Shown: positions 36,610-54,024 of the stretch, piece by piece
Layout of the letters: every line of letters begins with the position of its first letter
Numbering within the stretch: position 1 is the first letter of the stretch
Assembly: GCA_017438745.1 (NCBI GenBank)
Contig: JAFRUS010000053.1
Span: 1 to 64,000, forward strand
DNA: 64,000 bases
Origin: Oscillospiraceae bacterium
GTDB lineage: Bacteria; Bacillota; Clostridia; Oscillospirales; Ruminococcaceae
Direction: 5' to 3'
Position numbers and translations under genes: made by a program
Notes under the pieces: generated by a model
Seen by the model: only the letters and a program-made list of their open reading frames with translations
What the model was told of the DNA's origin: nothing
The model's database searches: none

Positions 36610-36628
36610 AATTACAGGAGGTGAACCA

Positions 36629-36814: not shown

Positions 36815-36867
36815 TCCCCGCCTGCTCCCGACATATATAATTTGAAATTATCAGAGGTGACTTATTT

Positions 36868-37260: not shown

Positions 37261-37406
37261 TAAAATTTTTACAGTAATTAAAATCGAAAAGGAGTTTATT
37301 TCAGAACTCTTCGTGTGAAATTTCGTGTGAACTTTTTTCTTAAAATATTGTTTTTACATGGAATATTTAAAGAAATTTCAGTTATTTTAAAATTCAAAAG
37401 CAAAAG

Positions 37407-37449
37407 AAAACCGCACATTTACGTAATTCATAGTAAACGTGCGGTTTTT
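37407..37449. terminator. Terminator after hicB
   Basis: Stem AAAACCGCAC/GTGCGGTTTT with an inner TTTAC/GTAAA pair and a T run on either strand. It lies 7 bp from the left repeat of the proposed element, so it may once have ended ssrA. Confidence 0.85.
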
Positions 37450-37455
37450 CAGTTT

Positions 37456-37466
37456 ATGGAGGCGGC
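37456..37466 (+). other. Left direct repeat (possible att site)
   Basis: ATGGAGGCGGC, identical in sequence and orientation to the end of ssrA at 54101-54111. The terminator at 37407-37449 would then be the original ssrA terminator. Confidence 0.45.
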
Positions 37467-37607
37467 TCACAACTGTCCTAAAATGCGAAAAAACAAGCTT
37501 TATTAATGACGAACCGCGATCCTACGTGATTTGTAGAAAGAACATCTATATTAGTTTAAGTATAACACGGATTTGCATTATTGTCAAGAAAGCTGATATT
37601 ACTGTAT

Positions 37608-38954: not shown

Positions 38955-39060
38955 AGATATTACTCCTTTATTATTTTATTATCCCATGCCGCCATTTGAT
39001 ATCTTCAAATCATTATATCATAGCATAATTACTCCGCGCTGTCAATAGCCTTATTGCAAC

Positions 39061-39096
39061 AAAAATAACGGATGCACCATCTGATACATCCGTTAT
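39061..39096 (-). terminator. Terminator of the 95-residue protein gene
   Basis: Stem AACGGATG/CATCCGTT, followed by a T run on the minus strand. Confidence 0.8.
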
Positions 39097-39118
39097 CATG
39101 ATTATAGGACAAGGTTTA

Positions 39119-39406
39119 TCACACTTTTTTACTATACGTTTTTGTACAGCCTTTCTTTCGGCCTAGTTCTATATTTTTGTATTTGTTTGTTGCATATCCA
39201 CAACTAACTTGTCTACCTAATCGACACTTGTCACCGCGTGAAAGTTTTTTATATGAACGAGGATTCTTACTTTCGATTACATTCTTAACAGTGACGTTTT
39301 GGTCATTGACTCCATCATTTGATGATTCCCACTCTTCGAATATATGAAGAGCTTCATTAAAGTCATCAGGATTGTTGATGTTATAATCTAAACTAAAATC
39401 AGCCAT
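39119..39406 (-). CDS. Small basic-tailed protein, unknown
   Basis: 95 residues. An acidic first half (FNEALHIFEEWESSNDG) and a very basic, Cys-containing second half (KLSRGDKCRLGRQVSCGYAT). GGAAAGGAG precedes the ATG. No family is recognised. The basic tail could bind nucleic acid. It lies downstream of the 135-residue gene, in the serine recombinase region. Confidence 0.6.
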   Translation of the reverse strand: MADFSLDYNINNPDDFNEALHIFEEWESSNDGVNDQNVTVKNVIESKNPRSYKKLSRGDKCRLGRQVSCGYATNKYKNIELGRKKGCTKTYSKKV

Positions 39407-39512
39407 AACTTACTCCTTTCCTCCACTGAATCTGTGGATAGTTTTATATTATCATCACACCAGATATGAGATACATATCTGGTATGACAATATGCGAATG
39501 CGTTATGCTATG

Positions 39513-39920
39513 TTAGTCTGCATCGTCGATGTCAACATCGATTTCCTCAGCTTCACCTAGCATCTTCTCAAACTTTTCTTTTTTTTCTGCCTTGATCCTC
39601 TCACGGTACGCTTTCACCGTATCCCAGTTTTCGTTCGTAAGGAACAAGTCAAGGTTGTTTATTCCTGCTTCTTTGCAGGCTTTATTCGAGGCAATTCTGA
39701 TTCTTCTGCCTGTAAGCTGAGATGCAGAACTTACTTTTGCAGTAGTACATAATTCCTCGATTTCAGCATCTGAGAGAACAAGCTTGCCAGTGTTTGTGTA
39801 ATTGTTGTTTTCATCCAAACCAACTACACTAAGATCGTATCCATCAGTAAGTTCATTCTCTTTTACAGTGAGGATAATTGCCTCTATAAGGTCCTTGCCA
39901 TTAGAAAACGTGCAATGCAT
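39513..39920 (-). CDS. Unknown acidic-tailed protein
   Basis: 135 residues starting MHCTFSNGKDLIEAI, with a lysine-rich helix (about 110-122) and an acidic end (EEIDVDIDDAD). The start at 39920 is used because GGAGG lies between an upstream ATG (39932) and this one. It lies 17 bp after the recombinase stop and is probably in its transcript. No known family. Confidence 0.6.
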   Translation of the reverse strand: MHCTFSNGKDLIEAIILTVKENELTDGYDLSVVGLDENNNYTNTGKLVLSDAEIEELCTTAKVSSASQLTGRRIRIASNKACKEAGINNLDLFLTNENWDTVKAYRERIKAEKKEKFEKMLGEAEEIDVDIDDAD

Positions 39921-39937
39921 TTTTACCTCCATGATGA

Positions 39938-41464
39938 TTACGCACTAAGCTTTTTTATTGTGTCTTTGTCAATGTGCAGACCATTCTTAAAGTGAAGAAC
40001 TACTCTCTCATCACTCAAATCAATATGATCAATGAGAGCATCCTTGAGTTCTACTGCTTCTACTGTTTTTACATCAGACATGTAAGCTACAAAGCTTTCA
40101 ACTGCCTCGTTATACAGTTCTTCATTCATGGTGCAAATCTTCTTTTCCTTTAAAGCAAGCTGTTCCTTCAGCTGCTTTAAAAGCTTTTCATTCTTTTCGA
40201 TATTACTGAGAATGGTCTCAGTTCCACGTCCTTGTCCAAGACAAGCTACAAGGTTATCCTGTTCAGTCTTGGTTTTCTGAATTTTCACCTTGATTGAGGA
40301 TAGTTCAGACGAACGCATATGAGTCTGCACATTAATTATCTCGTTGAGATAACCCAGTATACGTTCTTTGTTTTCTCCGCAAAACAGAACTTCTTTTAAC
40401 GCATCAAAGATGTACGTGTTAAGTTCGTTTACTGATACAGATTTATGTCTATGCTGACAATCACAGGTATACCTGTACTGAAGATATATTTTTCCTTTGC
40501 TGTGATTAGGATTACCTGTTACAGCTCTTCCGCAGCCAGCACATCTTATCATGCTATTAAGAGCATAATAATTCTTGCCATTTCGATGAGCCTGTCTTTC
40601 GGCATTATTCTTCAGCTTTTCCTGTGCTTTTTCGAAGTCTTCTTCGGATATAATCACAGGCATACCATTGGGGATTTTAATGTAGTTCTCTTTTTTTGCA
40701 TAAGAATTACGTTTACCCTCAGAATCTTTCGGTGCGCTCCGGTCGTAAGTGTATGTACCCATATACTTTACGTTTCGCAGAATAGCGTTTATAGAAGCTT
40801 TACTGAAATCATTTCCTTCTGAAGTTCGATAGCCCTTGTCTTTGCAGTGCTGTATGATTTCTCTGTATGAGAAATCATGCAGATACAACTTAAAAATATC
40901 TCTGATAATCGGAGCGGTATCATCGTCCACATCATAGGTATTGACGTCGTTCACTTTATAACCAAGCGGAGGAGTTCCACCTAGGTGCTGACAATGCCTC
41001 GCACTTTCCAGTAAAGCGTTTCTCGTATTATATGATAAGTTTCGAGAATACTCTTCTGCTATCGAAGCTCTTAACTGAATAACCAGACGGCTTTTTTCAT
41101 CACTTGTATCCACACCATCATGAACTCCTATCAGTGTGATACCTAAATTATCAAACAGATCCAGATCGGCAAGCATATTCTTAGCATTACGATGCAGACG
41201 GTCAATAGCTCTCACAAGTAATACCTTAGACTTCACTGTACCTGTTTTGAGATCTGATATCATTCTTTGATACTCCGGACGGTTTGTGTAACGACCGCTC
41301 TTAGCCGTATCAATATAAATGCGTTCTATATCCATCCCGTGGTTTGAAGCATACTCAGTACAGCACGCTATCTGTGCTTCGACTGAATTGCCGTCATCCT
41401 GTGCATGAGAACTGTACCTTATATATATGATTACACTTATAATTGCCTTCATAGTACTGTTCAT
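39938..41464 (-). CDS. Large serine recombinase 1
   Basis: 508 residues. The N-terminal resolvase domain has the catalytic Ser in IYIRYSSHAQDDGNSVEAQ and Arg in AIDRLHRN. A recombinase domain (GGTPPLGYKV...) follows, then a zinc ribbon (IRCAGCGRAVTG, YTCDCQH) and a coiled coil (about 360-440). It should cut and join DNA at att-type sites. AGGAGG lies 10 nt before the ATG at 41464; an ATG at 41494 lacks a good site. It may be the integrase of the island or of a nested element. Confidence 0.9.
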   Translation of the reverse strand: MNSTMKAIISVIIYIRYSSHAQDDGNSVEAQIACCTEYASNHGMDIERIYIDTAKSGRYTNRPEYQRMISDLKTGTVKSKVLLVRAIDRLHRNAKNMLADLDLFDNLGITLIGVHDGVDTSDEKSRLVIQLRASIAEEYSRNLSYNTRNALLESARHCQHLGGTPPLGYKVNDVNTYDVDDDTAPIIRDIFKLYLHDFSYREIIQHCKDKGYRTSEGNDFSKASINAILRNVKYMGTYTYDRSAPKDSEGKRNSYAKKENYIKIPNGMPVIISEEDFEKAQEKLKNNAERQAHRNGKNYYALNSMIRCAGCGRAVTGNPNHSKGKIYLQYRYTCDCQHRHKSVSVNELNTYIFDALKEVLFCGENKERILGYLNEIINVQTHMRSSELSSIKVKIQKTKTEQDNLVACLGQGRGTETILSNIEKNEKLLKQLKEQLALKEKKICTMNEELYNEAVESFVAYMSDVKTVEAVELKDALIDHIDLSDERVVLHFKNGLHIDKDTIKKLSA

Positions 41465-41487
41465 AAATATATTACCTCCTAATGCCG

Positions 41488-41604
41488 TTACCATGATAAA
41501 CAGAACCTATCTATCCGATAACAGCTTATGCAAAAATAATGTCTTACTTTGTAACTTGATGCTCCATTCGGCGGAGCTCGTGCATAGAAAATATTTCCAT
41601 TCAT
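41488..41604 (-). CDS. Micro-ORF of 38 codons (doubtful)
   Basis: Its ATG overlaps the stop of the 51-codon ORF (ATGA). It reads MNGNIFYARAPPNGASSYKV and then a Cys-rich end. It stops just before the recombinase. No own ribosome-binding site, so expression would need coupling. Confidence 0.25.
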   Translation of the reverse strand: MNGNIFYARAPPNGASSYKVRHYFCISCYRIDRFCLSW

Positions 41605-41756
41605 GATTTTTTATTGCCTTTCTCTAGTATGTCTGCAAGAACCTCAGCAGTAAGCTTTAAAATCTGGTTATTTGTTTCTTCTGAATATGAGCGTTCCGTT
41701 TCGCAGTCATCATAATAAAAGGATTTTTCCTTCGAATGAATGTCTTCGATCGACAT
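41601..41756 (-). CDS. Micro-ORF of 51 codons overlapping the DUF927 gene
   Basis: 51 residues (MSIEDIHSKEKSFYYDDCET ... LADILEKGNKKS), acidic and helical. It begins inside the last 45 bp of the DUF927 gene in another frame and ends as the next micro-ORF starts. The amino-acid make-up looks natural, but the ribosome-binding site is weak. Confidence 0.4.
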   Translation of the reverse strand: MSIEDIHSKEKSFYYDDCETERSYSEETNNQILKLTAEVLADILEKGNKKS

Positions 41757-43545
41757 TTTTACAATTGTATCCATTAATGATTGCCTCTCTGTCGTCTACG
41801 CTGCTTATCCAGTTATCAATTTTACTGTCCCAGTACTTATGTTCTTTGATTGATGACGTTTCAAATGCTATGTCACCAAAAATCTCCTTTACCTTAGCTA
41901 CATCTATTCTATATCCAATGTACGGAACACCATCTCTAGTGCTTCGTATTGAGTATCGTCCTTTGGATTGACGAACCAAGCATCCTTTTTTATCAATCAG
42001 ATTCAAAGCCTTCTTTGAATCAGGATATTTGATATCTTTGAGCACTGTTTCGAAAGCATTTTGTTCTATCAGTACTGTTAAAGGCTCCTTATTTTCGTCA
42101 GCTTCCCATATAACTCCTTTCATGCCTGGATGACTGGTTAAGTAACTGAATATCCTTTGAATCAGTATTCCTCCTCTGTCCGAGCATTCTGCTATTTTGT
42201 TCATAGAAGTAACAGAGATATCTTCCAGAGCCGCTACATCCATAGAAAATCCTATTTCAGTAAGTATATCGGCTGTTGTCAGAATCATCGCATGGTTCTC
42301 TATTAAACGGTCTCTCAACGAGCAACTAAGTAAGTTCTTATTCTTGCTTAAGGAGTCCTTCTTTTTTTCATAGAGCTGTTTAACGTCTGAGGGATCAGCG
42401 TCCAGAAGTAACTCAGAAACCAGTTTGGCAACAATACCGTGGTTATTTCTGGAAAATGTTTTTATTGTATTAGAATCTTCGCTGTCTTTGCTATATGTAT
42501 ATCCTTCGAGCGTTATGATTCTTGCGATAATGCCTTCGTTATCCTTTTCCAGGTCAATAAGAGAACATTCTGAACTGAAACAGGCTGTACATAACCATTC
42601 ATCTGTTTCTCTCAGCTGTCTTTTAGTATCAAGGCATTTCTTGCTTTTTCCCATACTGAAAATATACAGGAAATCCGTCATGGAAATCTTATTGTCCACA
42701 GTAGCTTCATCAAAAGCTATGAAAGTCCCAAAATGTCTTCCAAGAGCATAGATCAGAGCATTCTGCGTTCCGTAGAAACTAGATAGTATGGTATCTTTAT
42801 CAGGTGAACCAAACATAGACGCGGCAAATATCTGAGCGGTTGTTTTACCGGTTGATGAAAGTCCTGCTAATGATAATCCAAAAGAATTTACAGGAATGTT
42901 TACTGTTATTCTGAGATAAGCAAGCAGTATTGAGGCTACAGCAACTGCTACTACGAACTGTAAAGGGGCATTATCCTTCATGAGTTCGGAAGCACCCTGA
43001 ATGTACTCATCATCCGAGGCAAATGCCTTTTTCATTTCGAGGGAAGAATCATCCCAGATAAGCTTGTTGTCCTTTTTTCTCCAGCCCATAATCTGCTTTG
43101 CATCCTGCACCTCATAGTCTTTAGCTATAAGCTGCAGATACATAGCAAAGGCATCGGGTATTTTATCTTGGGGATTTAAACTAATACCCTTTGTCAGCAG
43201 TGTACTTGCGATAGTTTTCGGAGACAATTCTTCGAGATTGATCCGGAAACACTTATCATTATGAAGAATTTCCATAGAATGATTACCGTTGGTATCTTCA
43301 TAAATTCCCTCAACCGTGAAGGAATCTGCGATCCAAAGTACATGATCCTTGTAGATAGCGATAAAACATTCTTCAATATGCACTATACAGTATTCATACT
43401 GATTCTTACCACTACCAACGGTCAAGGACTTGCCTTGGTTTTTCAGTGCCTTGTACATAGTTGGAGGAATACCAGCTGTCCCGAAAGGCGGAACACCTAT
43501 CTTCATAGGAACATGATTGACACTGTTGGCATTAGGAATTTTCAT
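41710..43545 (-). CDS. DUF927-family ATPase
   Basis: 611 residues. A central P-loop domain has Walker A AGLSSTGKTTAQ (about 235) and Walker B FIAFDEAT (about 280), as in DUF927 proteins, which are helicase- or primase-linked ATPases of mobile elements and phages. The N-terminal 150 residues are unknown. AGGAGG precedes the ATG. It may load or drive replication of the element (inference). Confidence 0.88.
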   Translation of the reverse strand: MKIPNANSVNHVPMKIGVPPFGTAGIPPTMYKALKNQGKSLTVGSGKNQYEYCIVHIEECFIAIYKDHVLWIADSFTVEGIYEDTNGNHSMEILHNDKCFRINLEELSPKTIASTLLTKGISLNPQDKIPDAFAMYLQLIAKDYEVQDAKQIMGWRKKDNKLIWDDSSLEMKKAFASDDEYIQGASELMKDNAPLQFVVAVAVASILLAYLRITVNIPVNSFGLSLAGLSSTGKTTAQIFAASMFGSPDKDTILSSFYGTQNALIYALGRHFGTFIAFDEATVDNKISMTDFLYIFSMGKSKKCLDTKRQLRETDEWLCTACFSSECSLIDLEKDNEGIIARIITLEGYTYSKDSEDSNTIKTFSRNNHGIVAKLVSELLLDADPSDVKQLYEKKKDSLSKNKNLLSCSLRDRLIENHAMILTTADILTEIGFSMDVAALEDISVTSMNKIAECSDRGGILIQRIFSYLTSHPGMKGVIWEADENKEPLTVLIEQNAFETVLKDIKYPDSKKALNLIDKKGCLVRQSKGRYSIRSTRDGVPYIGYRIDVAKVKEIFGDIAFETSSIKEHKYWDSKIDNWISSVDDREAIINGYNCKNVDRRHSFEGKILLL

Positions 43546-43576
43546 TTTTATTTCCTCCTGTAAAAATATTTAGTCA

Positions 43577-43636
43577 GTACTACTTATGCTTAAGTGGTAC
43601 TGTTCAAATCTAATTGAGGTCAATCCCAATTAGATT
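43577..43636. promoter_or_regulatory. Pair of inverted repeats upstream of DUF927
   Basis: GTACTACTTA-TGCT-TAAGTGGTAC (43577-43600, one mismatch) and AATCTAATTG-N10-CAATTAGATT (43607-43636, perfect). A third, CCTAA-TCGGT-TTAGG, lies near 43767. They are in the 359-bp gap between two divergent genes and could be operators or part of an origin. Confidence 0.55.
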
Positions 43637-43904
43637 GTTTATATCATATCATTTGGTAGATGATCTTTCAAGCAGAGTTGTTGACTTTTGAAACGTGGCA
43701 TGCTATTATAATTATGTGCTTTTTACTTTACTACTTTAGTGTAATAGCCTTTTTTACGCCTTGACCCTAATCGGTTTAGGACAGTCAATAAGTCAACATC
43801 CGGCAAAACACTAAATTCAGAAAAATCGTCAACATTGACAAATGCAACGTAAAAAAAAAGCAACTTCACTAAAACATATACAATGACAAAGGAGAAAAAT
43901 CATT

Positions 43905-44402
43905 ATGGCCAACTCGAAATATAACTGGGATGAAATAACAGATCACATTAAAGAATTAACATTATTCAACATTAATTCTAATAAGCGTCCTCCCACAATG
44001 CAACAATTATACAGAAAGCTTAAAAGTGAATTTAAGCCTACTGCTCCAGACTTTAAGATTTTCTTACGACATTATCACAAATTTTTTGGATTGGAGAAAA
44101 GTCAAAAAAACTATGAAAGTTATCTTTATGATCTCGTTGGAAAGTATAATGAAGAATCACTAAGGCAGTTGGCAGACAATTTGAAGATTACTTCTCACAC
44201 GAGTGATGCAGTCTGGTTATTTATCCGTTTCAAAAAGAAGGATAGCGAGCTAAATACTCAAAAATATCTACATACCATGTCACAGAAGCTTAAAGAAGAA
44301 CTTGGTGAAAATATATTATTTATTACATTCGACCATGATACTTTGACGGTTCTTTGCAAAGACTCTGCGACCAAACATGATATCGAATACTATTTCAAGT
44401 GA
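43905..44402 (+). CDS. Unknown protein, possible ArgR-like C-terminal fold
   Basis: 165 residues, helical N-terminal half. The C-terminal segment FITFDHDTLTVLCKDSATKH loosely resembles the end of arginine repressors, but this is weak and no repressor HTH was seen. It is the first of a two-gene rightward operon. AAGGAG precedes the ATG. Confidence 0.6.
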   Translation: MANSKYNWDEITDHIKELTLFNINSNKRPPTMQQLYRKLKSEFKPTAPDFKIFLRHYHKFFGLEKSQKNYESYLYDLVGKYNEESLRQLADNLKITSHTSDAVWLFIRFKKKDSELNTQKYLHTMSQKLKEELGENILFITFDHDTLTVLCKDSATKHDIEYYFK

Positions 44403-44433
44403 ACCAAAAAATATGTAACAATGAGGTAGACAC

Positions 44434-45111
44434 ATGGGCAAAATAATATATAAGAAAGAAAATGTACTTGATGCTATAGCAGAATACTTATTCTATGAAA
44501 TGTCCCCCGCTGACAGCAAACTGCCAATTCAATCCATATACGATGATATAGTCAAATACACGCACACAAAAAAAGAGATTGAAATGCCGAAGTTCTTACA
44601 AGCCAGAAAAATGATTATAGCTAAATTGAAAGAAAACCATCTTTTCTCATCTTCAGATAAGCTAAATACTCAAACACTAATGCGACTTAAGACATTATAT
44701 TACGATGATGAAGACATAGACTATGTGATCCATAATAAATATGATATTACATACTATTCTGATGGGATTATTACATGCACCTTTAAGCTGCCTAACGATG
44801 ATATATTATCCAGTCTGACTTCAGCAATTAGTTCGAACAAAAAGAAAAGTGATAGATGGGGCAAACTCAATTCTATCTTTAAAATTTGTAAATATATAAA
44901 AGATCATGATCCTGATAATATACTTGCTGTTATTCCGGAATGTAGCAGGGCAGTTTATATTGATAGAAAAGCAAAGATAATACCAAAATCTATCTACGAT
45001 GATATTCCACCTGTATGTAATTCTCTTTGTATGTTCGTAAAGAATACTCCGAAAGGGAAAAAAATCATAGATCGATTCAAGAATGGAGATTTCAAAAAAG
45101 ACCAGTCATAG
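44434..45111 (+). CDS. Unknown cytoplasmic protein
   Basis: 225 residues, no signal or TM segment, mixed helix and strand, Lys-rich C-terminus (PKGKKIIDRFKNGDFKKD). GAGGTAG precedes the ATG, 31 bp after the upstream gene, so the two are cotranscribed. No family recognised. The divergent place beside DUF927 suggests a regulatory or replication role, but nothing in the sequence proves it. Confidence 0.6.
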   Translation: MGKIIYKKENVLDAIAEYLFYEMSPADSKLPIQSIYDDIVKYTHTKKEIEMPKFLQARKMIIAKLKENHLFSSSDKLNTQTLMRLKTLYYDDEDIDYVIHNKYDITYYSDGIITCTFKLPNDDILSSLTSAISSNKKKSDRWGKLNSIFKICKYIKDHDPDNILAVIPECSRAVYIDRKAKIIPKSIYDDIPPVCNSLCMFVKNTPKGKKIIDRFKNGDFKKDQS

Positions 45112-45126
45112 CGGCTGGTCTTTTTT
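45098..45126 (+). terminator. Terminator of the two-gene operon
   Basis: AAAGACCAG(T)C / GCTGGTCTTT, followed by a T run. Confidence 0.85.
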
Positions 45127-45153
45127 TACACACTTTACTTGACAAACACTTTT

Positions 45154-45447
45154 TTAGTACTCTTCAGCGAGGAGCATAGTGCAATACTCTTCACTGTCTA
45201 TACAATAGATCTTAGTCGTCACAGCTTGTTTTGCTTCTGCGAGTATATACAATCTTTCATATTCCGGTTCTTCTGACTTATGAAGAATATACTGTACTCC
45301 GTTCTCAGCTTTGAGTTCAAATATCTGCAGATAATCCTTTGGTTCAGGCATGTTATCAACTGCAGACCAAAGGAACAGCTGAATTTCAGGGGATATACTG
45401 TCGGCAACACCTCTTGTGAGGTAGCGCTTCTTATATGGCTCAAACAA
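45154..45447 (-). CDS. DUF960 protein
   Basis: 97 residues matching the DUF960 pattern: KRYLTRGVADSISPEIQLFL at the start, DYLQIFELKAENGVQYILHK in the middle. The function is unknown; the family is common on plasmids and integrative elements of Firmicutes. The start is TTG (45447), with GGAGG 8 nt upstream. It overlaps nothing and starts 3 bp after the recombinase stop. Confidence 0.85.
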   Translation of the reverse strand: MFEPYKKRYLTRGVADSISPEIQLFLWSAVDNMPEPKDYLQIFELKAENGVQYILHKSEEPEYERLYILAEAKQAVTTKIYCIDSEEYCTMLLAEEY

Positions 45448-45450
45448 CTC

Positions 45451-47007
45451 TTATTCCTCCTTCGTCCTTGAGTCAAACAATTCATATAGATCGCCGCGTC
45501 TGATCGATATGGTTTCTTTCATTTCACCAGTGACTCCAAATCCTACATCAAGGGTTATTTCTATGGTGTACGGATATGCTACTATCTTGTCTACATACGT
45601 CTGAACAAAAGTACGGAACAGTACTGTATTACGTTCCATATTTCTGTATTCATCTATTAAATGCTCATATTCCTGATAGTTTAACGGTTCATAATGCCTT
45701 AATGCTCTTAGCTGTATCTGCTTTTCGGTCAGATTACTGTCCAGTTCTTCTGCACGTTCAATAAGCTGCTGAGTAAGCAAGCCTCTTTCTACCGCTTCTG
45801 TTATACGATCAAGGGATTCCCGAAGCACTGATACTTCTCTTTCAAGGGTATCATACCGCTCATCGAATTCTGAATTGTATTTTTCTATATACTTATTCAG
45901 GTCTTTGATCCTTTTCTTTAATGAATTCCTGTTGAAGATTTTCTGCCGTAACAGATCTGCTACATATGCATCAAGATAGTCTTTGTTATTTTCTTTGTTA
46001 TTGCATACGAACTTGGGTTCATTGCATCGGTATGTCGCTAGTCTGTTCTTACGTTCACCGGCAAAGCGTAGATTGCCTATCATTCTTTTACCGCAAATAC
46101 CGCAGAAAACTTTCCCCGTAAGCAGATAGAACTCCTTACCGTGGTAATGTCCTGTATTTCTTCTGTTCTTGGCTTTTATTCTCTGAACCCTTTCAAAGAG
46201 ATGCTTGCTTATTATTGCCGGACATCCGTCTTCTATCCTTATGATCTTGTCATTGGTCTTATAGGCATGATTAGTCAGTCGGCTGTCAGTTCTGGACGCT
46301 GACTTGTTGAACACGAATACACCTGTATACTTTTCGTTTCTGAGAATACTGTCGATACTGTTCTTGCCAAACACACCGCCTCGTTTCGTATGATATCCGT
46401 TATCATTAAGGTAGTTTATTATCGGCGTATAACCATTACCCTCAGCAAACATCTCGAAGATCTTTTTCACTGCCTCAGCTTCACTCTTGTTTATTATCAA
46501 GTGTTTGTCTTCATCGATATCATATCCGAGCGGCGGACAGCCTCCTGTATGTTTGCACTGAAGAGCGGTTTCATTCATGCCTTTCATTACTTCACGGCTA
46601 AGATTTCGGCTGAAATATTCCGCCATACCTTCAAGAACGGATTCCATCATGATGCTTTCAGGACTGTCATCTATTCGTTCAAGAACACTGCAGAGACGCA
46701 CATTATTATTTTTCAGACGTTTTTTGTATATAGCACTGTCATAACGGTCACGACTGAATCTGTCGAGTTTATGGACAAGAACTATATCGAACAAGCCTTT
46801 GCTACTGTCTGCTATCATCTTTAAGAACTGAGGACGATTATCTGTAGTAGCTGATCTTGCTTCATCTGTATATGTAGCTACTGTCTGCCAGTGCTGCTGT
46901 TTGCAATACAGATTCATCGCTCTTATCTGAGCGTCAATACTTTCTGTTCGCTGATTATCAGAACTGAACCTTGCATACTGAGCAACCCGATGTACAGTTA
47001 AGCTCAT
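45451..47007 (-). CDS. Large serine recombinase 2
   Basis: 518 residues. Resolvase domain with QYARFSSDNQRTESIDAQ (catalytic Ser in FSS) and HKLDRFSRDRYD, recombinase domain (TGGCPPLGYDIDED), a zinc ribbon (VFCGICGKRMIGN, YRCNEPKFVC), a coiled coil (about 355-440) and a C-terminal tail. It differs from recombinase 1, so the island may be a composite. AGAGGT precedes the ATG; the gene overlaps the 97-residue gene by 4 bp. Confidence 0.92.
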   Translation of the reverse strand: MSLTVHRVAQYARFSSDNQRTESIDAQIRAMNLYCKQQHWQTVATYTDEARSATTDNRPQFLKMIADSSKGLFDIVLVHKLDRFSRDRYDSAIYKKRLKNNNVRLCSVLERIDDSPESIMMESVLEGMAEYFSRNLSREVMKGMNETALQCKHTGGCPPLGYDIDEDKHLIINKSEAEAVKKIFEMFAEGNGYTPIINYLNDNGYHTKRGGVFGKNSIDSILRNEKYTGVFVFNKSASRTDSRLTNHAYKTNDKIIRIEDGCPAIISKHLFERVQRIKAKNRRNTGHYHGKEFYLLTGKVFCGICGKRMIGNLRFAGERKNRLATYRCNEPKFVCNNKENNKDYLDAYVADLLRQKIFNRNSLKKRIKDLNKYIEKYNSEFDERYDTLEREVSVLRESLDRITEAVERGLLTQQLIERAEELDSNLTEKQIQLRALRHYEPLNYQEYEHLIDEYRNMERNTVLFRTFVQTYVDKIVAYPYTIEITLDVGFGVTGEMKETISIRRGDLYELFDSRTKEE

Positions 47008-47297
47008 TTTCTTATTACCTCTACAGGAAGATATGTATCTTCACCGTAACTGTCTCCAAGGATCTTTACTCCATGAAGATATACTGTATCTCCGATTTCG
47101 AGTACTTCCACGAATTCCATTTCTGATACAGAAAAATCTTGTATCTCGGAACTATCAAGAATTATTATGCATCCGATATGCGAGAGATCATTAACGTTGT
47201 ATTCAGCCATCATATTCTTAATATTTCTGTCGATATACTCTCTGAGATCTTTCGCCTTTATATTCTCTGTTTGCTCAGGACTTGTTATTTTCAGCAT
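47004..47297 (-). CDS. Unknown 97-residue protein
   Basis: 97 residues (MLKITSPEQTENIKAKDLRE), beta-rich second half (VEVLEIGDTVYLHGVKIL). The start at 47297 follows GGAGG; a longer start at 47318 lacks a site. It overlaps DUF1643 upstream and the recombinase downstream, so it is in one operon with them. Confidence 0.6.
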   Translation of the reverse strand: MLKITSPEQTENIKAKDLREYIDRNIKNMMAEYNVNDLSHIGCIIILDSSEIQDFSVSEMEFVEVLEIGDTVYLHGVKILGDSYGEDTYLPVEVIRK

Positions 47298-47817
47298 TGT
47301 TTTCTTCCTCCATTTCATACGGAACTAATGTCCACTCAAATCTTACTGCAGGAGTCAAAGGATGATATCCCTCTTCACCGATTTGGTACAGCTTGTTTTT
47401 GTACTTGTTCAGCCTTTCAAGTATATCTTTCTGGCGTTCATGTACACGTTCGCTTTTACTTCCGACACTGCCCCAGGCAATTATGACTGCATCGCTGAGA
47501 GCTGCATACTGTTCTATAATATCATCACATTCCTTGGCTATAAGATCGTCATCCGAATTGAATCTAAATCTTAGTTTTTCGGTTATACGACTATAGAGAT
47601 TGACAATGTTTACACTACCGAACCCAAGCTTCTGCAGATTATTCAGTACAAGCATAGTAGTCACATCTACACATATTGTATCTGCAATACTCGGATTAAT
47701 CATGATTATCATTGCTGATTTACCGCTCCTGTTCCATTCTCTGCGAAGAAGCATACGGTGTTCACCGTCATCAGAGAAAAGAACCTTGCTCTTTATTACT
47801 GTAGTTTCTGTTTTCAT
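47275..47817 (-). CDS. DUF1643 protein
   Basis: 180 residues. The DUF1643 pattern is clear: RMLLRREWNRSGKSAMIIMINPSIADT and NIVNLYSRITEKL, then DDIIEQYAALSDAVIIAWGS. The function is unknown; it is frequent in phages and mobile elements. GAGGTGA precedes the ATG. First gene of an operon ending with recombinase 2. Confidence 0.85.
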   Translation of the reverse strand: MKTETTVIKSKVLFSDDGEHRMLLRREWNRSGKSAMIIMINPSIADTICVDVTTMLVLNNLQKLGFGSVNIVNLYSRITEKLRFRFNSDDDLIAKECDDIIEQYAALSDAVIIAWGSVGSKSERVHERQKDILERLNKYKNKLYQIGEEGYHPLTPAVRFEWTLVPYEMEEENNAENNKS

Positions 47818-47827
47818 AATTCACCTC

Positions 47828-47857
47828 AAAAAAACAAGGCAGAGCATTTCTGCTCCA
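47828..47857 (-). terminator. Weak terminator after the micropeptide genes
   Basis: GAGCA-GAAA-TGCTC stem, followed on the minus strand by TTGTTTTTTTG. Confidence 0.55.
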
Positions 47858-47867
47858 CCTTCAAAAA

Positions 47868-47951
47868 TTACTTCTTTTTCTTAAAGAGTATTTCGATGAT
47901 CTCGATAACAACTCCGACTGTATGCATTACAACTCTTACTGTCTTATTCAT
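47868..47951 (-). CDS. 27-residue micropeptide with basic tail
   Basis: MNKTVRVVMHTVGVVIEIIE, then ILFKKKK: a short hydrophobic helix with a lysine tail, suited to sit on a membrane. GGAGGTGAT lies 8 nt before the ATG, a near-perfect ribosome-binding site that makes translation likely. Its ATG overlaps the stop of the 35-residue ORF (8 bp). Confidence 0.6.
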   Translation of the reverse strand: MNKTVRVVMHTVGVVIEIIEILFKKKK

Positions 47952-48051
47952 TGGATTCTATCACCTCCTTCAGCTTTTCAGCGGCCATAAACGTGACCAC
48001 GATTCCTTCCAGTACAAGCGTAAATACCATTCCGGCTATGAATGTTTTCAT
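47944..48051 (-). CDS. 35-residue micropeptide, single helix
   Basis: MKTFIAGMVFTLVLEGIVVT, then FMAAEKLKEVIESNE: one hydrophobic helix with an acidic, Lys/Glu-rich end. AGGAGG lies 8 nt before the ATG. It is encoded about 50 bp after the class II amidotransferase and overlaps the 27-residue gene, so all belong to one transcript. Confidence 0.6.
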   Translation of the reverse strand: MKTFIAGMVFTLVLEGIVVTFMAAEKLKEVIESNE

Positions 48052-48101
48052 ATGTTTTTTCCTCCTGTTTATTATCAACGCTTATATAGCGTTACTGGCT
48101 T

Positions 48102-49001
48102 TTACAGTTCTCCGTCAAGAAGCATTTCTTCTATTTCATCACAGGTATAACCAAGATCAAGAAGTTCTTCTATTGTCTCTCTGTTTACTCCATAGCAGCC
48201 GCATATCATGAAAAGATCCTCAGCATAATCATTATCATATCTGTATTTTTCATGGCTGAACCATCGGGAAAAACTGCTGTAATGATGATTATCGAATGCG
48301 CCTGAAGAAAGCTTTCCATTGCTGTCAATACAGATTATGTCACCGTCATGTATCCTGATTTCCTCATATACGCTCTTAAGCTTTACTGCTCTGAGAGCGG
48401 TAGTGAGTATTTCATTAGTAGAAGCGTAAACATACAATCCAAGTTCCGGATAGTGCAGTAACGTCACCGGATTATTATCTCTTGCGATGAAAAGCGTATT
48501 ATCATCTCTGAGAACCGTGAATACAAAGTTTCCGTCAACAGACTCAGACATATTTTTTATACTAATCATATCTACCTTATTTTCTTTCTCCAGAAGCTGA
48601 ACTGCTATATATGAATCAGTCTGTATTACAGTGTCCGGAATATTCATGCTTTTCCTTAATTCCTGATCGTTATACAGAACACCATTATGAGCAAGAGCAA
48701 AAGCATGTTCAGCTGTTTTCCCAGTGAACGGATGATTGTTATAGTTCATGTTCTCGCTACCCTGAGTAGTAAAGCGAGTATGGCCAGTAACCGCTCTTGT
48801 TCCTTTAGGGAAGTAAAGCTTTACTTTATGAGCTGGCAGAGCTTTTTTGAAAGTAACTATATTACCGTTGCTGACATAGCTGATTCCTGTAGCATCTATT
48901 CCTCTTGTTTCAGCTGCCACTGACAGTTCTCGAAGAAGTCTTTTAAGAATACCAGCAGAGGTTTTTCTGCCATAATCCATAAAGCCAAATACAGCACACA
49001 T
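48102..49001 (-). CDS. Class II glutamine amidotransferase
   Basis: 300 residues. The start is fixed by the N-terminal nucleophile: MCAVFGFMDYGRKTS, where Cys2 becomes the catalytic residue. AGGAGG precedes this ATG; an upstream start at 49058 would bury the Cys. The fold is the GATase_6/7 type (GHTRFTTQG, LAHNGVLYN, QTDSYIAVQLL). It frees ammonia from glutamine. Next to an amidoligase, its partner in amide or peptide-bond chemistry is likely the amidoligase (inference from the known gene pair). Confidence 0.9.
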   Translation of the reverse strand: MCAVFGFMDYGRKTSAGILKRLLRELSVAAETRGIDATGISYVSNGNIVTFKKALPAHKVKLYFPKGTRAVTGHTRFTTQGSENMNYNNHPFTGKTAEHAFALAHNGVLYNDQELRKSMNIPDTVIQTDSYIAVQLLEKENKVDMISIKNMSESVDGNFVFTVLRDDNTLFIARDNNPVTLLHYPELGLYVYASTNEILTTALRAVKLKSVYEEIRIHDGDIICIDSNGKLSSGAFDNHHYSSFSRWFSHEKYRYDNDYAEDLFMICGCYGVNRETIEELLDLGYTCDEIEEMLLDGEL

Positions 49002-49002
49002 T

Positions 49003-49224
49003 TTACTTCGCCTCCTTTCCAATGATTTCGAAGATATCTGTTTCTGGACATATACCAAGGCTTCTTCCGTTATCCCACTTCATATGAATAGTTCCGATAT
49101 CATCTACGTATTCAACTGTTCCTGTTGCACCTCTTGAAAGAGGTGTATATGGATCATCCATATATATTAGTCTGATTCTTGTACCAGCAGGATAGGCTCT
49201 CTTGTAGTATTCAGCTTTTCTCAT
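49003..49224 (-). CDS. DUF4314 protein
   Basis: 73 residues, one small SH3-like barrel: YPAGTRIRLIYMDDPYTPLS, GTVEYVDDIGTIHMKWDNG. This is the DUF4314 pattern, usually found with amidoligase genes on mobile elements. The start at 49224 has GGAGG 9 nt upstream. It lies between the amidoligase and the amidotransferase. Confidence 0.85.
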   Translation of the reverse strand: MRKAEYYKRAYPAGTRIRLIYMDDPYTPLSRGATGTVEYVDDIGTIHMKWDNGRSLGICPETDIFEIIGKEAK

Positions 49225-49225
49225 A

Positions 49226-50317
49226 TCACATATCCTCCTCAGCATACACTCTTTCATTTACATACAGTCTTCTTTCCTTAAGATACTGTATCAGTTCAGG
49301 ATATTTGATTTCTTCTGCTAACTGCGACCATGACATTTCTTCTATTTCCTCCTGGGACATAGAAAGAGCCACATCACAGATCGTATCTACGAACTGCAAT
49401 GTGGCTATGAATGTGTTATATTTCAGAGTTCCTCTGAACAGTCTGAATTCTATGGTATTGTAGTTGCACAGATTTATGGCACAATATCGACCGTTACTGC
49501 TTTCTTTAGCTTTTTTCAGTATTTCTTTTCCTGTACGTTCATATCCGTATCTTGATGCCCAACGGTTCATGTTGTATGTACTTCTTCGAGAAAAGCGAAA
49601 GACTTCATTCCAGTGCTTTTCTATCAGGAAAAGTATCTTGCTTATGACCTCTTCCTGTTCTGACTGATTATCTCCGAAAGCATCTCTGTTTACATGAACA
49701 TGCAGACCACAGGTATTTGTCTGATGAGAAAGATATCCCAAGCTTATAGCTTCATTGAGTATAGCCTCCCATTCACATTCTTTCATATGATATTCAAGAG
49801 TCATAGGATGAGAAACTATCTCAAAGCCATCTGACAGACTTCCGTCATTCTTGATGTATATATGATTATGCTGTATGTTGGCTATATCCTTTATGGTTTC
49901 AGCATTGTTATTAGTTCTTCCGCCTTCATCCACTTCGAGTTCTACTCCAAGATATCTGTTTCCGTCTCCATAGAAAATCGGTTCAGGCTTATAGCTGTAA
50001 TCTTCTATCTCATCATCGAATTCATCGTAACAGGTGTCACAGTAAGGATAGTCTCCACGCCAGTTTATCTCACTGTCATGTATAAGCCTTCCGCAGCCTT
50101 CACAATGATGATAGCTGTCTTCATAGCAAGAGCGGCATAAAGTAGTATTTTCATCGTGTTCTGCATCAGTGATCCAGATGATCTCACCGCAATGATCACA
50201 AGTTGTACAGTGAGTGCTTACACATTCGTCGCAAAGAAGTCTTTCACCAACAGTTGTTCCAGCATCTTCTTCAATTACACATCCGCAAATATCGCAGACT
50301 CTTTTGTTTTCTTCCAT
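49226..50317 (-). CDS. Amidoligase with LIM-like zinc-finger N-terminus
   Basis: 363 residues. Residues 1-105 carry six CxxC knuckles (CDICGC, CDECV, CDHCG, CRSCY, CEGCG, CDTCY). The rest is a glutamine-synthetase-fold amidoligase: YLGVELEVDEG, the acidic/His pair KNDGSLSDGFEIVSHP, TCGLHVHVNRDA, TIEFRLFRGTL. Such enzymes are predicted to form amide links between a carboxylate and an amine on peptides or proteins, and they occur with class II amidotransferases. The zinc part may bind a partner protein. GGAGGT precedes the ATG. Confidence 0.88.
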   Translation of the reverse strand: MEENKRVCDICGCVIEEDAGTTVGERLLCDECVSTHCTTCDHCGEIIWITDAEHDENTTLCRSCYEDSYHHCEGCGRLIHDSEINWRGDYPYCDTCYDEFDDEIEDYSYKPEPIFYGDGNRYLGVELEVDEGGRTNNNAETIKDIANIQHNHIYIKNDGSLSDGFEIVSHPMTLEYHMKECEWEAILNEAISLGYLSHQTNTCGLHVHVNRDAFGDNQSEQEEVISKILFLIEKHWNEVFRFSRRSTYNMNRWASRYGYERTGKEILKKAKESSNGRYCAINLCNYNTIEFRLFRGTLKYNTFIATLQFVDTICDVALSMSQEEIEEMSWSQLAEEIKYPELIQYLKERRLYVNERVYAEEDM

Positions 50318-50421
50318 TTCAATCTACCTCCAAATATAATTTTATTATGATAGTTGATAGGGGGGTGGAAGACCCTTATCAAGATTATAATACATATTTG
50401 TAGATTGTATTTGATACGGAT

Positions 50422-50455
50422 AAAAAAAGTCCCTATGAGAATTATCTCATAGGGA
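50422..50455 (-). terminator. Terminator of the AAA operon
   Basis: Perfect 11-bp stem TCCCTATGAGA-ATTA-TCTCATAGGGA; seven T residues follow on the minus strand. It separates this operon from the amidoligase genes. Confidence 0.85.
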
Positions 50456-50516
50456 AATATTTATTCATTATTTTGTTATTATATAATTTAATATAATTAT
50501 AATAGATTATATATAG

Positions 50517-51806
50517 TCACGAGGACTTATCAGCATCTATTTTATTCTTTATAGCGCTTTTTATTAAATCTTGCTGCTCTTCAGTTGGTATTCTTTTTGA
50601 AGAAGAATAATCCTCAGCTTTTTTAAAGCCTTCTTCCTCTTCTTTGACTTTTTCACAAGCAGATAAAAAATCTGAGTGAGTTACTGTATCACCATTTTTC
50701 ATTGCTACCGAAACACATGCTGTAATTACAGATTTTCGAATATCTCTTCCACAAAAGTCATATTTTTCAGCCAGATCTTGGGTGTCAACGTCACTTGCAA
50801 GTGGAATTTTTATTCCATTACCTGAAATATGAACATCCCATATTTTTTTTCGGCATTCTAAATCAGGCTTTACAAATTCAACGTTAATAAGTCTTGTTCT
50901 AAATGCTTGATCGTAATTAACAAAAAGATTCGTCGCAAATATTACTATTCCCTTGTATTCCTCAAGACAAATAAGCAATTGACTACGCATAGAGTTTATC
51001 GCTTGTTCAGATCCCTGCGTCACATTTGTCAAACGTTTAGACAACAACGATTCTGATTCATCAATGAATAAAACTGCATCCTCATTTTGAGCGGCCATAA
51101 AAATTGCTTTTACCATTTTAGGACCTTCACCATGAAACTTGCTTTCAATATCAGCATAACTTGCTTTGAGTATTTTTTTATTCAGCTTATTAGCTATAGC
51201 CTCAGCTGCCATAGTCTTACCTGTCCCGGATGGTCCATAAAAGTTTAAAGCAGATGATGGATTAGGTTGAATCACAGATAATCCCCATTCATCAAATACT
51301 TTTCGTTCACATAAAACTATCGCTAAAGACTCCTCTATTCTATCTTTGACTTTTTGTGGAAGAATAACTCTATCGAATGTATATGCTGGATCAACTGGTT
51401 TATAATTTTTAGAAAGCCTCTGATAATCGAATTCCTGTATATCACTATTAAGAGAGGAGCTATTATCTGAAGAAGTATTTTTTTTACCTCCAGTAATACT
51501 GTCAATATTAAAGTTCGTTTCTATTCTTACTAATGACAAAAGTTGTCTACCGTAAAGCTCTTCAAAATACTTTTTTATTTCATCTGTGGCGATTCTTTTT
51601 CTTTCCCTAACATTGTCTTCGATCATACCATCGACAACAAAGTTGTAATCAAGCACTTTATCACCATAACGCATGTTTTTAAGATTATATACTTTATACT
51701 CTTCAACTTTTTCGTTGAATGCTTTTTCAAATATTTTAACGATAGTATTCTTATCTGTTTTATCTTCGCCAATACTATCACTATTAACTAAATAAAATAG
51801 CTTCAT
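50517..51806 (-). CDS. AAA+ ATPase of the small-protein operon
   Basis: 429 residues. The N-terminal 130 residues are unique, with a Ser/Asn-rich linker at 108-122. One AAA+ domain follows: Walker A GPSGTGKT (191-198), Walker B AVLFIDES (244-251), sensor 1 in IVIFATN (Asn293), arginine finger about 303-305 (FRTRL), and sensor 2 in GRDIRKS. A charged helical C-terminus ends it. Proteins of this sort remodel or extract protein partners. It is the last gene of the operon, 7 bp after the previous stop; partners are likely the four small proteins. AAAGGAT precedes the ATG. Confidence 0.88.
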   Translation of the reverse strand: MKLFYLVNSDSIGEDKTDKNTIVKIFEKAFNEKVEEYKVYNLKNMRYGDKVLDYNFVVDGMIEDNVRERKRIATDEIKKYFEELYGRQLLSLVRIETNFNIDSITGGKKNTSSDNSSSLNSDIQEFDYQRLSKNYKPVDPAYTFDRVILPQKVKDRIEESLAIVLCERKVFDEWGLSVIQPNPSSALNFYGPSGTGKTMAAEAIANKLNKKILKASYADIESKFHGEGPKMVKAIFMAAQNEDAVLFIDESESLLSKRLTNVTQGSEQAINSMRSQLLICLEEYKGIVIFATNLFVNYDQAFRTRLINVEFVKPDLECRKKIWDVHISGNGIKIPLASDVDTQDLAEKYDFCGRDIRKSVITACVSVAMKNGDTVTHSDFLSACEKVKEEEEGFKKAEDYSSSKRIPTEEQQDLIKSAIKNKIDADKSS

Positions 51807-51812
51807 AGCATA

Positions 51813-52235
51813 TTATCCTTTAATTAATATAACTCCATCGTTTAAATCTAATGCAGTGATTATGTTTTCAGCAATCTTTTCTTTGATTACAAAATCAGCC
51901 TGAACAACTCTATCAGATGACTCATCATATTCACCTATAATGTATTCATCAGAAATCGAATTAATCCATTCCGGAAAAGCACTTTTTTCATAATATTTTA
52001 ACAGAGAACCCACTTTAGCAACTAATAGCACCGTTCCTGATCTCTTTTTATAAACTTTAAGATAAGAAATATCTATTTCTTTATCAATCCTTTCCATAAC
52101 AAAGTTATCTTTATATACAACTTTTAATTTTTCAAAGATCTGAGAGCAAACATTCTTAGTAATATCTAAAGCTTTCTTAGCTCCGTTTACAGCAACGTTA
52201 AGAGATGTATCTACTATATTTTCAAGAATTGTCAT
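51813..52235 (-). CDS. Small paralog 4 with NDG tail (amphipathic N-terminus)
   Basis: 140 residues. An amphipathic helix (about 3-38) is followed by a beta-rich domain with LLVAKVGSLLKYYEK and EYDESSDRVVQADF, ending ALDLNDGVILIKG. It lines up with its neighbour at 52247: VGS-[LM]-[LI]-KY, EYDE, VQA-x-F and the tail are shared. It may lie on the membrane surface. GGAGG precedes the ATG. Not matched to any known family. Confidence 0.75.
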   Translation of the reverse strand: MTILENIVDTSLNVAVNGAKKALDITKNVCSQIFEKLKVVYKDNFVMERIDKEIDISYLKVYKKRSGTVLLVAKVGSLLKYYEKSAFPEWINSISDEYIIGEYDESSDRVVQADFVIKEKIAENIITALDLNDGVILIKG

Positions 52236-52246
52236 AATTTTCCTCC

Positions 52247-52627
52247 TTATCCCTCAATCATTATAATACCATCATTCTGTTTAAGTGCAGCATCAATATT
52301 TTCATCCCATTTTTCATACTGATTAGCAAACTGAGCCTGTACTAATTCATCTTTCTCTTCATCGTATTCTGCAACAACAGTCTCTTTACCAATTTTTTCA
52401 AGATCATCAAAACTGTAAGTGCGTTTATCTTTATCTGGAATGTACTTAATCATACTGCCCACATTAGCCATTACAAGCTTACTCGCTTTTTTCTGCTTGT
52501 ATTTTTTCAGCACATTAACTGTTATCTTAACTGTGAAATATGTAATAGCACCTATTACAGCTGCAGCCAGTATCGCTGATAATACTGCTTTAAATACAAC
52601 TGTACCGATAATACCTAAACCAAACAT
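52247..52627 (-). CDS. Small paralog 3 with NDG tail (transmembrane)
   Basis: 126 residues. A long hydrophobic N-terminus (MFGLGIIGTVVFKAVLSAIL... to about 40, one or two TM passes), then basic residues, then the shared domain (MANVGSMIKY, AEYDEEKDELVQAQF) and the tail KQNDGIIMIEG. The start at 52627 follows AGGAGG; a TTG at 52648 lacks a site. It lies 11 bp upstream of the next gene. Confidence 0.75.
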   Translation of the reverse strand: MFGLGIIGTVVFKAVLSAILAAAVIGAITYFTVKITVNVLKKYKQKKASKLVMANVGSMIKYIPDKDKRTYSFDDLEKIGKETVVAEYDEEKDELVQAQFANQYEKWDENIDAALKQNDGIIMIEG

Positions 52628-52648
52628 TTTTTTATTCCTCCTGAGCAA

Positions 52649-52984
52649 TTAATTCATTATAGGTTCAATGAATACATCACCGACCCCTATATCGTCTTCG
52701 ACTTTATCTGCATTAATATTGTAAATCGTATCCTTTTCTAAATCACTAAAAGTAACAACACCGCCCTTTTTATTCTTAATAATCACTTTAATTATCCTTC
52801 CTAACATCCCCTTGTTTTGCATTATAGAAATTTGCTTTCTGTTTAAAATCTTACAAAAAAGATTTATAACAGTTTTGGTAGCATAATGTAAAACATCAGA
52901 TACAGATTCCATAGATGATTTTATAGCTTTATTGTATCCGTGTTTAATACTCTTAAAATTAATAATTTGGGGTTTCTTAATCAT
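52649..52984 (-). CDS. Small paralog 2, diverged tail
   Basis: 111 residues. A basic amphipathic front (about 15-45, SVSDVLHYATKTVINLFCKI), a strand-rich middle (GRIIKVIIKNKKGGVVTFSD) and an end (GVGDVFIEPIMN) that only partly matches the NDG tails. It is the least similar member; kinship is inferred from place, size and layout. The ATG at 52984 (AGGAG upstream) is preferred to a GTG at 52990. Confidence 0.65.
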   Translation of the reverse strand: MIKKPQIINFKSIKHGYNKAIKSSMESVSDVLHYATKTVINLFCKILNRKQISIMQNKGMLGRIIKVIIKNKKGGVVTFSDLEKDTIYNINADKVEDDIGVGDVFIEPIMN

Positions 52985-52995
52985 AACCACTCCTA

Positions 52996-53415
52996 TTATT
53001 CTATAAAAATTACACCATCATTATTATTAAATATCTCAGCCATCGATGAGGTTAATTCTTCAAATTCTATCACACGAATCTTTATTACCTTCTCTTTAAT
53101 TTCATCGTATAAGATTTGAACAATCATATTTTCATTATTACAATTAATATTCTTTGGAAGATGAAACTTTTGAAGATTACTATTATTCGGTTGTATTAAT
53201 ACATTTTTTAACTTACCGTTCGGATTATTTTTCTTAAACCAGGGAGTTAAATCAGAACCACTAAGTTTATCTACAACCAACTGTTCTTCAGCAACATCTT
53301 TTATGATTTCAGAATAATCACCTGATTTTTTAGACAAAACTTTATAAGCAGCATAACAAATAGCAACTGCTACAATGGCTACTCCGCCTATGATAACACA
53401 ATCATTAGTATCCAT
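52996..53415 (-). CDS. Small paralog 1 with NDG tail (transmembrane)
   Basis: 139 residues: a short acidic start, one TM helix (VIIGGVAIVAVAICYAAYKV, about 8-27), a basic stop, a Lys/Asn-rich region, and the end SSMAEIFNNNDGVIFIE, very like the tails of paralogs 3 and 4. It is the first gene of the operon, transcribed away from the XRE regulator. AAGGAG precedes the ATG. Confidence 0.75.
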   Translation of the reverse strand: MDTNDCVIIGGVAIVAVAICYAAYKVLSKKSGDYSEIIKDVAEEQLVVDKLSGSDLTPWFKKNNPNGKLKNVLIQPNNSNLQKFHLPKNINCNNENMIVQILYDEIKEKVIKIRVIEFEELTSSMAEIFNNNDGVIFIE

Positions 53416-53481
53416 AGTTTCACTCTCCTTAGTATTTTGTAAAATATATACTTCTCATATACTGAATAAATTATAGCTTAT

Positions 53482-53515
53482 ACTATTAACCATTAATTCA
53501 CGAGTGGTTAATAGT
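53482..53515. promoter_or_regulatory. Operator-like palindrome between regulator and operon
   Basis: Perfect 11-bp arms ACTATTAACCA-N12-TGGTTAATAGT, in the 197-bp gap between divergent genes. A likely binding site for the XRE protein, controlling both sides. Confidence 0.65.
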
Positions 53516-53612
53516 GTTTACCATCAATGAAGTAATTTTAGCATATAATGAATTAAAAGTCAACTATCTTTTCGTGATTTTATACACTTTAGACAACAAG
53601 AAGGCTTAGAAT

Positions 53613-53894
53613 ATGTTCAAATTAAAAACATCAAGTGGTAAGAATAATATAACAGGTTATAAGTTATCACTAATAAGAAAGCAAAGAACTATTTCTCAAA
53701 GGCAATTAGCAAAAATGATGCAATTATCGGGATACGATGTTGATCATCATTTTATAAGAAGAATAGAAAATGGTGAAAGATTCGTCACTGATATAGAATT
53801 ACTTGCTTTAAGTCGCGTACTGAATATTCCTATAACAGAATTAATAGATGAATCATCGAGTATCAACGTTAGTACTGAGGACGGAAATTCATAA
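53613..53894 (+). CDS. XRE-family transcriptional regulator
   Basis: 93 residues with one helix-turn-helix of the Cro/C1 type (about 18-72: LSLIRKQRTISQRQLAKMMQ, FIRRIENGERFVTDIELLAL). No second domain. AGAAGG precedes the ATG. It is divergent from the four-small-protein operon and probably represses it through the palindrome at 53482-53515. Confidence 0.88.
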   Translation: MFKLKTSSGKNNITGYKLSLIRKQRTISQRQLAKMMQLSGYDVDHHFIRRIENGERFVTDIELLALSRVLNIPITELIDESSSINVSTEDGNS

Positions 53895-54024
53895 TATATT
53901 GGATTTCGCCATTTCGCCATCATTTTTCGGAAAGAGAGTAATACCAAAATAGGGTATTATTTAAGGTATATTCCGACCATTTTCGCGTTGAACCCACCAA
54001 CTCGAAATCCTTATGAATATATAG

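Follow-up and report, generated by a model that had tools for sequence, protein, structure and literature searches.

The paired system IetAS keeps a plasmid stable and SgiAT does the same for an island (PMC5006074), and the MoxR-vWA ternary systems bring together a MoxR-type AAA protein and a vWA protein (PMC7159879). Our analysis concerns a 64,000-nucleotide stretch of DNA from an Oscillospiraceae bacterium of the gut (contig JAFRUS010000053.1, positions 1 to 64,000; hereafter the window), in which five minus-strand open reading frames (ORFs), running from 53415 to 50517, form one unit bracketed by a candidate promoter and a candidate terminator: four genes for small proteins (P0005, P0004, P0003 and P0002) are followed by a gene for an AAA ATPase (P0001). 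We tentatively favour, with a probability that we place a little short of even, the view that the five genes make up the core of a conflict system (anti-invader or element-protection) that is tethered to the membrane, gated by the AAA and carried as cargo by an island. Relative to PADLOC (2023), Pfam, NCBIfam and PHROGs and to the open-access literature, the unit is undescribed; we found no published description of the system in that literature, and a later or closed description is possible.

The unit shares with IetAS and SgiAT a location on mobile elements, and IetA is the best PADLOC match of its AAA (9.9e-21). The AAA falls, however, far below the IteA/IetA cut-off (63.7 vs 510 bits), and the unit has ordered small membrane proteins in place of a protease; no subtilisin-like serine protease was found in the five proteins or in the scanned neighbours, which cover part of the island ORFs. 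Unlike the MoxR-vWA systems, it has an AAA of the classical type (PF00004) and no vWA match. The AAA-domain profile and PDB entries that best match P0001 are those of PAN, Rpt and CDC48, but its N-terminal region is a different one, all curated cut-offs are missed and no link to a proteasome was seen. The layout of membrane-attached subunits with an AAA recalls ESCRT-III/Vps4 (CdvB/CdvC) and PspA, whereas the subunits in the window are alpha/beta proteins (judged from two AlphaFold models), the AAA is of another family and there is no Pfam Snf7 or PspA match. As regards CBASS, the AAA matches TRIP13 (4.2e-12) more weakly than it does IetA, and none of the five proteins has a HORMA match.

Part of the evidence for the favoured reading is the recurrence of the AAA gene together with the small-protein genes in other genomes. 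To define classes of small proteins, ORFs upstream of the AAA gene were extracted from loci found through their AAA and sorted by eye and by alignment, which gave classes A, B, C and D, a cyanobacterial tandem-domain protein and a cyanobacterial transmembrane (TM) protein. These related loci, which carry L numbers below, are draft contigs, many of them metagenome assemblies; taxon names are those of the records and ORFs were called by a simple script. When the class profiles were rebuilt minus each locus in turn and searched against 2092 ORFs (the window and 27 related loci), class hits were confined to the stretch of genes immediately preceding the AAA gene, and three window proteins were regained without their own sequences: P0005 by class C (4.2e-19), P0003 by class A (7.5e-11) and P0004 by class D (1.3e-6). 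At least two class members (E < 1e-3) were present in 22 of the 27 other loci and one member in a further three; as to the remaining two, L052 has no class member and L062 ends at a contig boundary. In complete loci of Clostridia and Synergistetes the genes usually run C-D-B-A-(A')-AAA, an order from which L035, L049 and L050 depart slightly, and Cyanobacteria carry a reduced form of the unit.

A survey of 391 genomes of the bacterial class found the AAA (at E 1e-70) in three, class C in three and class A in two; alignments A2 and A3 were judged too variable for such collection scans, and the class D alignment was A4. Two genomes, G000 and G206, have the AAA, class A and class C together. The third genome with the AAA (G364) has a more distant AAA and no small-protein genes, and the third copy of class C (in G534) stands next to a class D-like ORF, after which the contig ends. 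A chance gene cluster is ruled out by this co-occurrence in genomes and by the leave-one-out profiles. The unit is rare, with a close AAA in 3 of 198 genomes of the family, and was found both on an island (in the window) and on a plasmid (L027); a scan of viral contigs with P0001 as the sole query gave no match. The sequence-only reading of this DNA had proposed to check whether the AAA and small genes recur together, and had named an absence of such recurrence, or matches to known families of unrelated role, as grounds for dropping its view. Neither ground applies: the genes co-occur strictly, and for the small proteins no known family is matched.

We found no convincing family match for the small proteins in Pfam, NCBIfam, PHROG or PADLOC; the sequence-only reading had recognised no family either. 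It had, however, missed a kinship: P0002 is a paralogue of P0003 (42% over 76 aa, E 1e-13), and P0005 is a distant relative. Profile-profile comparison joins class A to class C (94%, 1e-7) and to the cyanobacterial TM protein (91%, 9e-7), and class B to class C (91%, 1.3e-6) and to the cyanobacterial tandem protein (92%, 6e-7). These comparisons show that most of the small proteins belong to a single superfamily, built of an N-terminal membrane helix and an alpha/beta domain that places its final strand at the extreme C-terminus. A hydrophobic strand lies there in 59 of the 64 class A, B, C and cyanobacterial rows, compared with 69 of the 181 remaining called ORFs, some of which are spurious. 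TM segments were found in 14/19 members of class A, 12/13 of class C, 7/9 of class D and 0/11 of class B. The window proteins had been described as two with an N-terminal TM segment and two with an amphipathic or basic helix, and Kyte-Doolittle profiles (19-residue) agree, giving strong N-terminal TM segments in P0005 (2.39) and P0003 (2.44) and no TM segment in P0004 and P0002, whose maximum within the first 70 residues is 0.78 and which have amphipathic stretches instead.

The AlphaFold model of P0003 has a mean pLDDT (predicted local distance difference test score) of 67.6, with the domain mostly at 67 to 90, and found no PDB or viral match in Foldseek at E 0.001. That of the class C protein of L042, a relative of P0005, has a mean pLDDT of 83 and consists of a long N-terminal helix followed by a b-a-a-b-a-b-b-a-b domain; it had no PDB match at the same threshold. 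Weak hits to a Rubisco-small-subunit-like fold (E 0.23) were not counted as evidence.

The proposed AAA+ partner was borne out by its Pfam match. P0001 contains Walker A (GPSGTGKT, 191), pore-loop (KFHGEG, 223), Walker B (LFIDE, 246), FATN (290) and AFRTR (301) motifs, in regions conserved over 17 aligned AAA sequences. The motifs found in threading unfoldases (Walker A, Walker B, pore loop and arginine finger) are thus all retained in this AAA clade. The pore loop of P0001 resembles that of PAN/Rpt. The nearest profiles are PAN, CDC48 and IetA-type, with every curated NCBIfam cut-off missed by far; the match to the PAN profile (2e-33, 116 bits), for example, is below the PAN subfamily cut-off of 500. 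The N-terminal region is alpha/beta-like. In a maximum-likelihood tree of 78 AAA sequences, the 27 rows of the operon group form one clade (support 100/99), which includes L052, where no small-protein gene was detected; AAA scores in the operon-group set are at least 364 bits, against at most 260 bits in the other set.

The neighbours of this clade are, moving outward, L030/L032, then L029/L136, then L031/L033/L078. L030 and L032 hold the nearest AAA outside the group (branch 99/90) and, like the unit, have membrane-protein partners, but these are proteins of 380-715 aa and MotA/OmpA-like proteins, not members of the small-domain superfamily. L030 (3836-8373) adjoins ZorA/ZorB-like genes and L032 (216-8249) has a ZorA-like gene and a PDC-M27C-type helicase, and the two look like an unusual Zorya-related arrangement; the five window proteins themselves have no ZorA (MotA-like) or ZorB (OmpA-like) match. 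L078 (4077-9020) and L033 (3992-6413) also combine a related AAA with a neighbouring TM protein of 110-119 aa; here, however, the small gene lies directly downstream of the AAA gene, and its product bears no significant resemblance to the classes of the window (E about 0.1).

The genes upstream of related units, considered in a sample of loci, fit a conflict context. Upstream, L035, L041 and L042 encode a Tox-GHH nuclease whose tail is glycine-rich and hydrophobic, and L045 has a 467-aa protein with a similar tail and no Pfam match. There is a TerB protein in L042 (PF05099, 3e-13), and L037, L041 and L045 have ORFs of matching length and similar sequence, taken as TerB-like on that likeness only. 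In L034 a WYL protein occurs with a glycine-rich zinc-ribbon protein; L050 has an M48 peptidase match and L053 a divergent NB-ARC/STAND-type protein. In L143, an ORF resembling the L034 WYL protein and a 302-aa ORF that matches nothing in Pfam both lie ahead of class C, and two related loci outside the clade, L078 and L031, each encode a WYL regulator upstream of the AAA gene. L044 has a UvrD/PD-(D/E)XK helicase, to which an L047 ORF is similar by likeness only. The plasmid locus L027 encodes a HerA/DUF87 protein and an Hsp70-TPR protein, the latter matching the cyanobacterial tandem profile in its C-terminal region. The sequence-only reading had guessed at a defence, stress or membrane role. 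The company kept by the relatives (Tox-GHH, TerB, WYL, M48 and NB-ARC, with ZorA/ZorB-like and PDC-M27C by way of the sister clade) fits this, nothing demonstrates membrane remodelling as such, and the function is still a matter of inference. Two features of these loci were noted beside this survey: the nuclease stands in a block with a 268-277 aa ORF and a 98-123 aa ORF (L035 1966-4313, L041 2400-5144, L042 2590-5336), and in L027 (870-5930), a Planktothrix plasmid, five small genes precede the AAA gene.

Taken further, the conflict-system reading suggests the following model. Since positive residues follow the TM segment, the domains of the small proteins would face the cytosol, and the subunits would assemble at the inner membrane as a hetero-oligomer. 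An AAA hexamer would dock through its N-terminal region and pull on the exposed C-terminal tails, and this pulling would assemble, disassemble or switch the small-subunit complex, which in the relatives would restrain or release a linked effector (a nuclease, peptidase or membrane protein). In the window no linked effector can be recognised, so a TM subunit may itself be the effector, or the effector may be encoded elsewhere, or the unit may be a reduced core. It is possible, if doubtful, that the unit represents a new class of conflict system, in which paralogous single-pass membrane proteins form a hetero-oligomer and a dedicated AAA unfoldase, working on it by way of their C-terminal tails, gates interchangeable effectors; the system would be conserved in Clostridia and Synergistetes and reduced in Cyanobacteria. 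If this is right, a widespread yet undescribed superfamily of small proteins is gained, together with a new way in which bacteria link a protein unfoldase with a complex anchored in the membrane when in conflict with mobile elements. Given a conserved order, one AAA clade and variable upstream genes, the question can be tested immediately.

Several observations weigh against this reading. P0002 was not regained by the leave-one-out class A profile and is assigned through paralogy alone. The window order is C-D-A-A'-AAA, with class B missing; we considered whether P0002 could be the missing class B protein, and the absence of similarity rules this out. Direct profile comparison is weak for classes A and B (16%) and for class C and the cyanobacterial tandem protein (4%), so that the kinship of A, B and C runs via intermediate classes, and class D, compared with class A alone, resembles it in the TM and linker half only (92%), so its tail domain may be unrelated to the other small classes. 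The N-terminal region of P0001 has no detectable similarity to the class A or class C small domain, which rules it out as an extra copy of that domain. The variable neighbour genes occur in a minority of loci, and some of them (the UvrD-type helicase, Hsp70) need not be effectors; in the window, no effector was recognised. The pulling of tails by the AAA, which is suggested by its motifs and by the position of the C-terminus, is less certain than the conflict-system reading itself.

Other explanations have to be set against these points. The unit could serve island maintenance in the manner of a toxin-antitoxin system, with at least one small membrane protein being toxic and the AAA restraining it, as IetA/SgiA restrains the protease IetS/SgiT. 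The IetA match, the precedent of IetAS and SgiAT for stabilising a plasmid and an island (PMC5006074), the position of the operon at one island end and the lack of another recognisable effector in the window would all suit such a role. We nevertheless consider it unlikely, given the shortfall of the AAA against the NCBIfam IteA model, the lack of a subtilisin-like gene among the scanned neighbours and an ordered multi-gene core of paralogues that is unlike a two-gene pair.

A machine for membrane remodelling or envelope stress, akin to ESCRT-III/Vps4 or PspA, in which the AAA would recycle small subunits that coat the membrane or change its shape, is quite unlikely. It would account for membrane-anchored subunits beside a classical-clade AAA with some similarity to CdvC (2e-19), and TerB adjoins some loci, but the subunits are alpha/beta and not of the helical Snf7/PspA type, neither family is matched, the AAA scores 69.7 bits where the CdvC cut-off is 650, and the unit is rare and sporadic. 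We regard as very unlikely an accessory function for the mobile element (transfer, entry exclusion or product secretion) in which the AAA would be an assembly ATPase of the EccA kind. Such a function is compatible with the occurrence on an island and a plasmid, with a block of amidoligase, GATase and recombinase-like ORFs that L034 has in common with the window in sequence and order, and with a weak EccA similarity (7.9e-7). Against this, the neighbours in cyanobacterial contigs are very different, so that the unit is not tied to one element type, and the scanned island ORFs included none recognisable as a gene for secretion or conjugation. A small share of the probability goes to none of these four readings.

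The features of the locus are collected in Table 1. All five ORFs lie on the minus strand where the five-gene operon had been placed. The tight packing described for them holds, with intergenic gaps of 11, 21, 11 and 6 bp from P0005 to P0001, after two starts had been moved; ATG was preferred as start codon, which placed starts at 52984 and 52627, and for P0003 the alternative TTG at 52648 was judged less likely. A divergent regulator had also been noted and proved to match HTH_3; its product would control expression through the inverted repeat, which had no match in 100 shuffles. Promoter-like sites are not enriched in the region (18 vs 21.7 expected), so the promoter at 53563-53535 is a candidate only.

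Table 1. Coordinates of the unit, its putative control signals and the surrounding insertion in the window.
Feature	Position	Strand	Description
P0005, class C small protein	52996..53415	-	139 aa; N-terminal TM helix, then alpha/beta domain reaching the C-terminus (...NNNDGVIFIE)
P0004, class D small protein	52649..52984	-	111 aa; amphipathic helix; short tail domain
P0003, class A small protein	52247..52627	-	126 aa; b-a-a-b-b-a-b domain after an N-terminal TM helix; ends in NDGIIMIEG
P0002, class A' small protein	51813..52235	-	140 aa; amphipathic helices replace TM; P0003 paralogue
P0001, classical-clade AAA ATPase	50517..51806	-	429 aa; PF00004 1e-22
Divergent HTH_3 (Cro/CI-type) regulator	53613..53894	+	PF01381 2.3e-8
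Perfect 11-bp inverted repeat, candidate operator	53482..53515		ACTATTAACCA-N12-TGGTTAATAGT; between promoter candidate and first gene
Sigma-70-like promoter candidate	53535..53563	-	TTGACT-17-TAAAAT, TG preceding -10; weak
Intrinsic terminator-like hairpin and T run	50430..50455	-	3' of AAA gene
17.9-kb insertion (island) between fic and ssrA	36116..54017		G588 comparison; operon at ssrA end

An island-edge location for the unit had been proposed and is supported by comparison with the genome G588, in which the stretches matching window positions 34989-36115 (97%) and 54018-57881 (86%) are adjacent; the DNA between them is therefore an insertion relative to G588. In the same comparison, the insertion borders the ssrA terminator. 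Another genome, G583, holds a 26-bp copy of the end of the transfer-messenger RNA (tmRNA) gene 44 kb from ssrA, with a different 44-kb stretch between, and for this reason the fic/ssrA neighbourhood seems to have been used repeatedly. We rejected the idea that the tmRNA 3' end forms a duplicated attachment site for this island in the window, where it has no second copy.

The island has two large serine recombinase genes (39938-41494 and 45451-47007), one identified by the scan and the other by its sequence, and a gene for a Cch-type DUF927 helicase (41710-43545), which matches the SCCmec cassette helicase model (4e-36) below the model cut-off; together these suggest a cassette-chromosome-like element. 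A 448-aa ORF (37608-38954) looks by eye like a duplicated nucleotidyltransferase-type protein, with no supporting match in Pfam, NCBIfam or PADLOC. Other island genes encode an amidoligase, a GATase, DUF1643 and DUF4314. The amidoligase and a class II GATase accompany the AAA unit at 47275-50317 of the window, as they do in L034 (9849-14499) and L051 (11291-12629).

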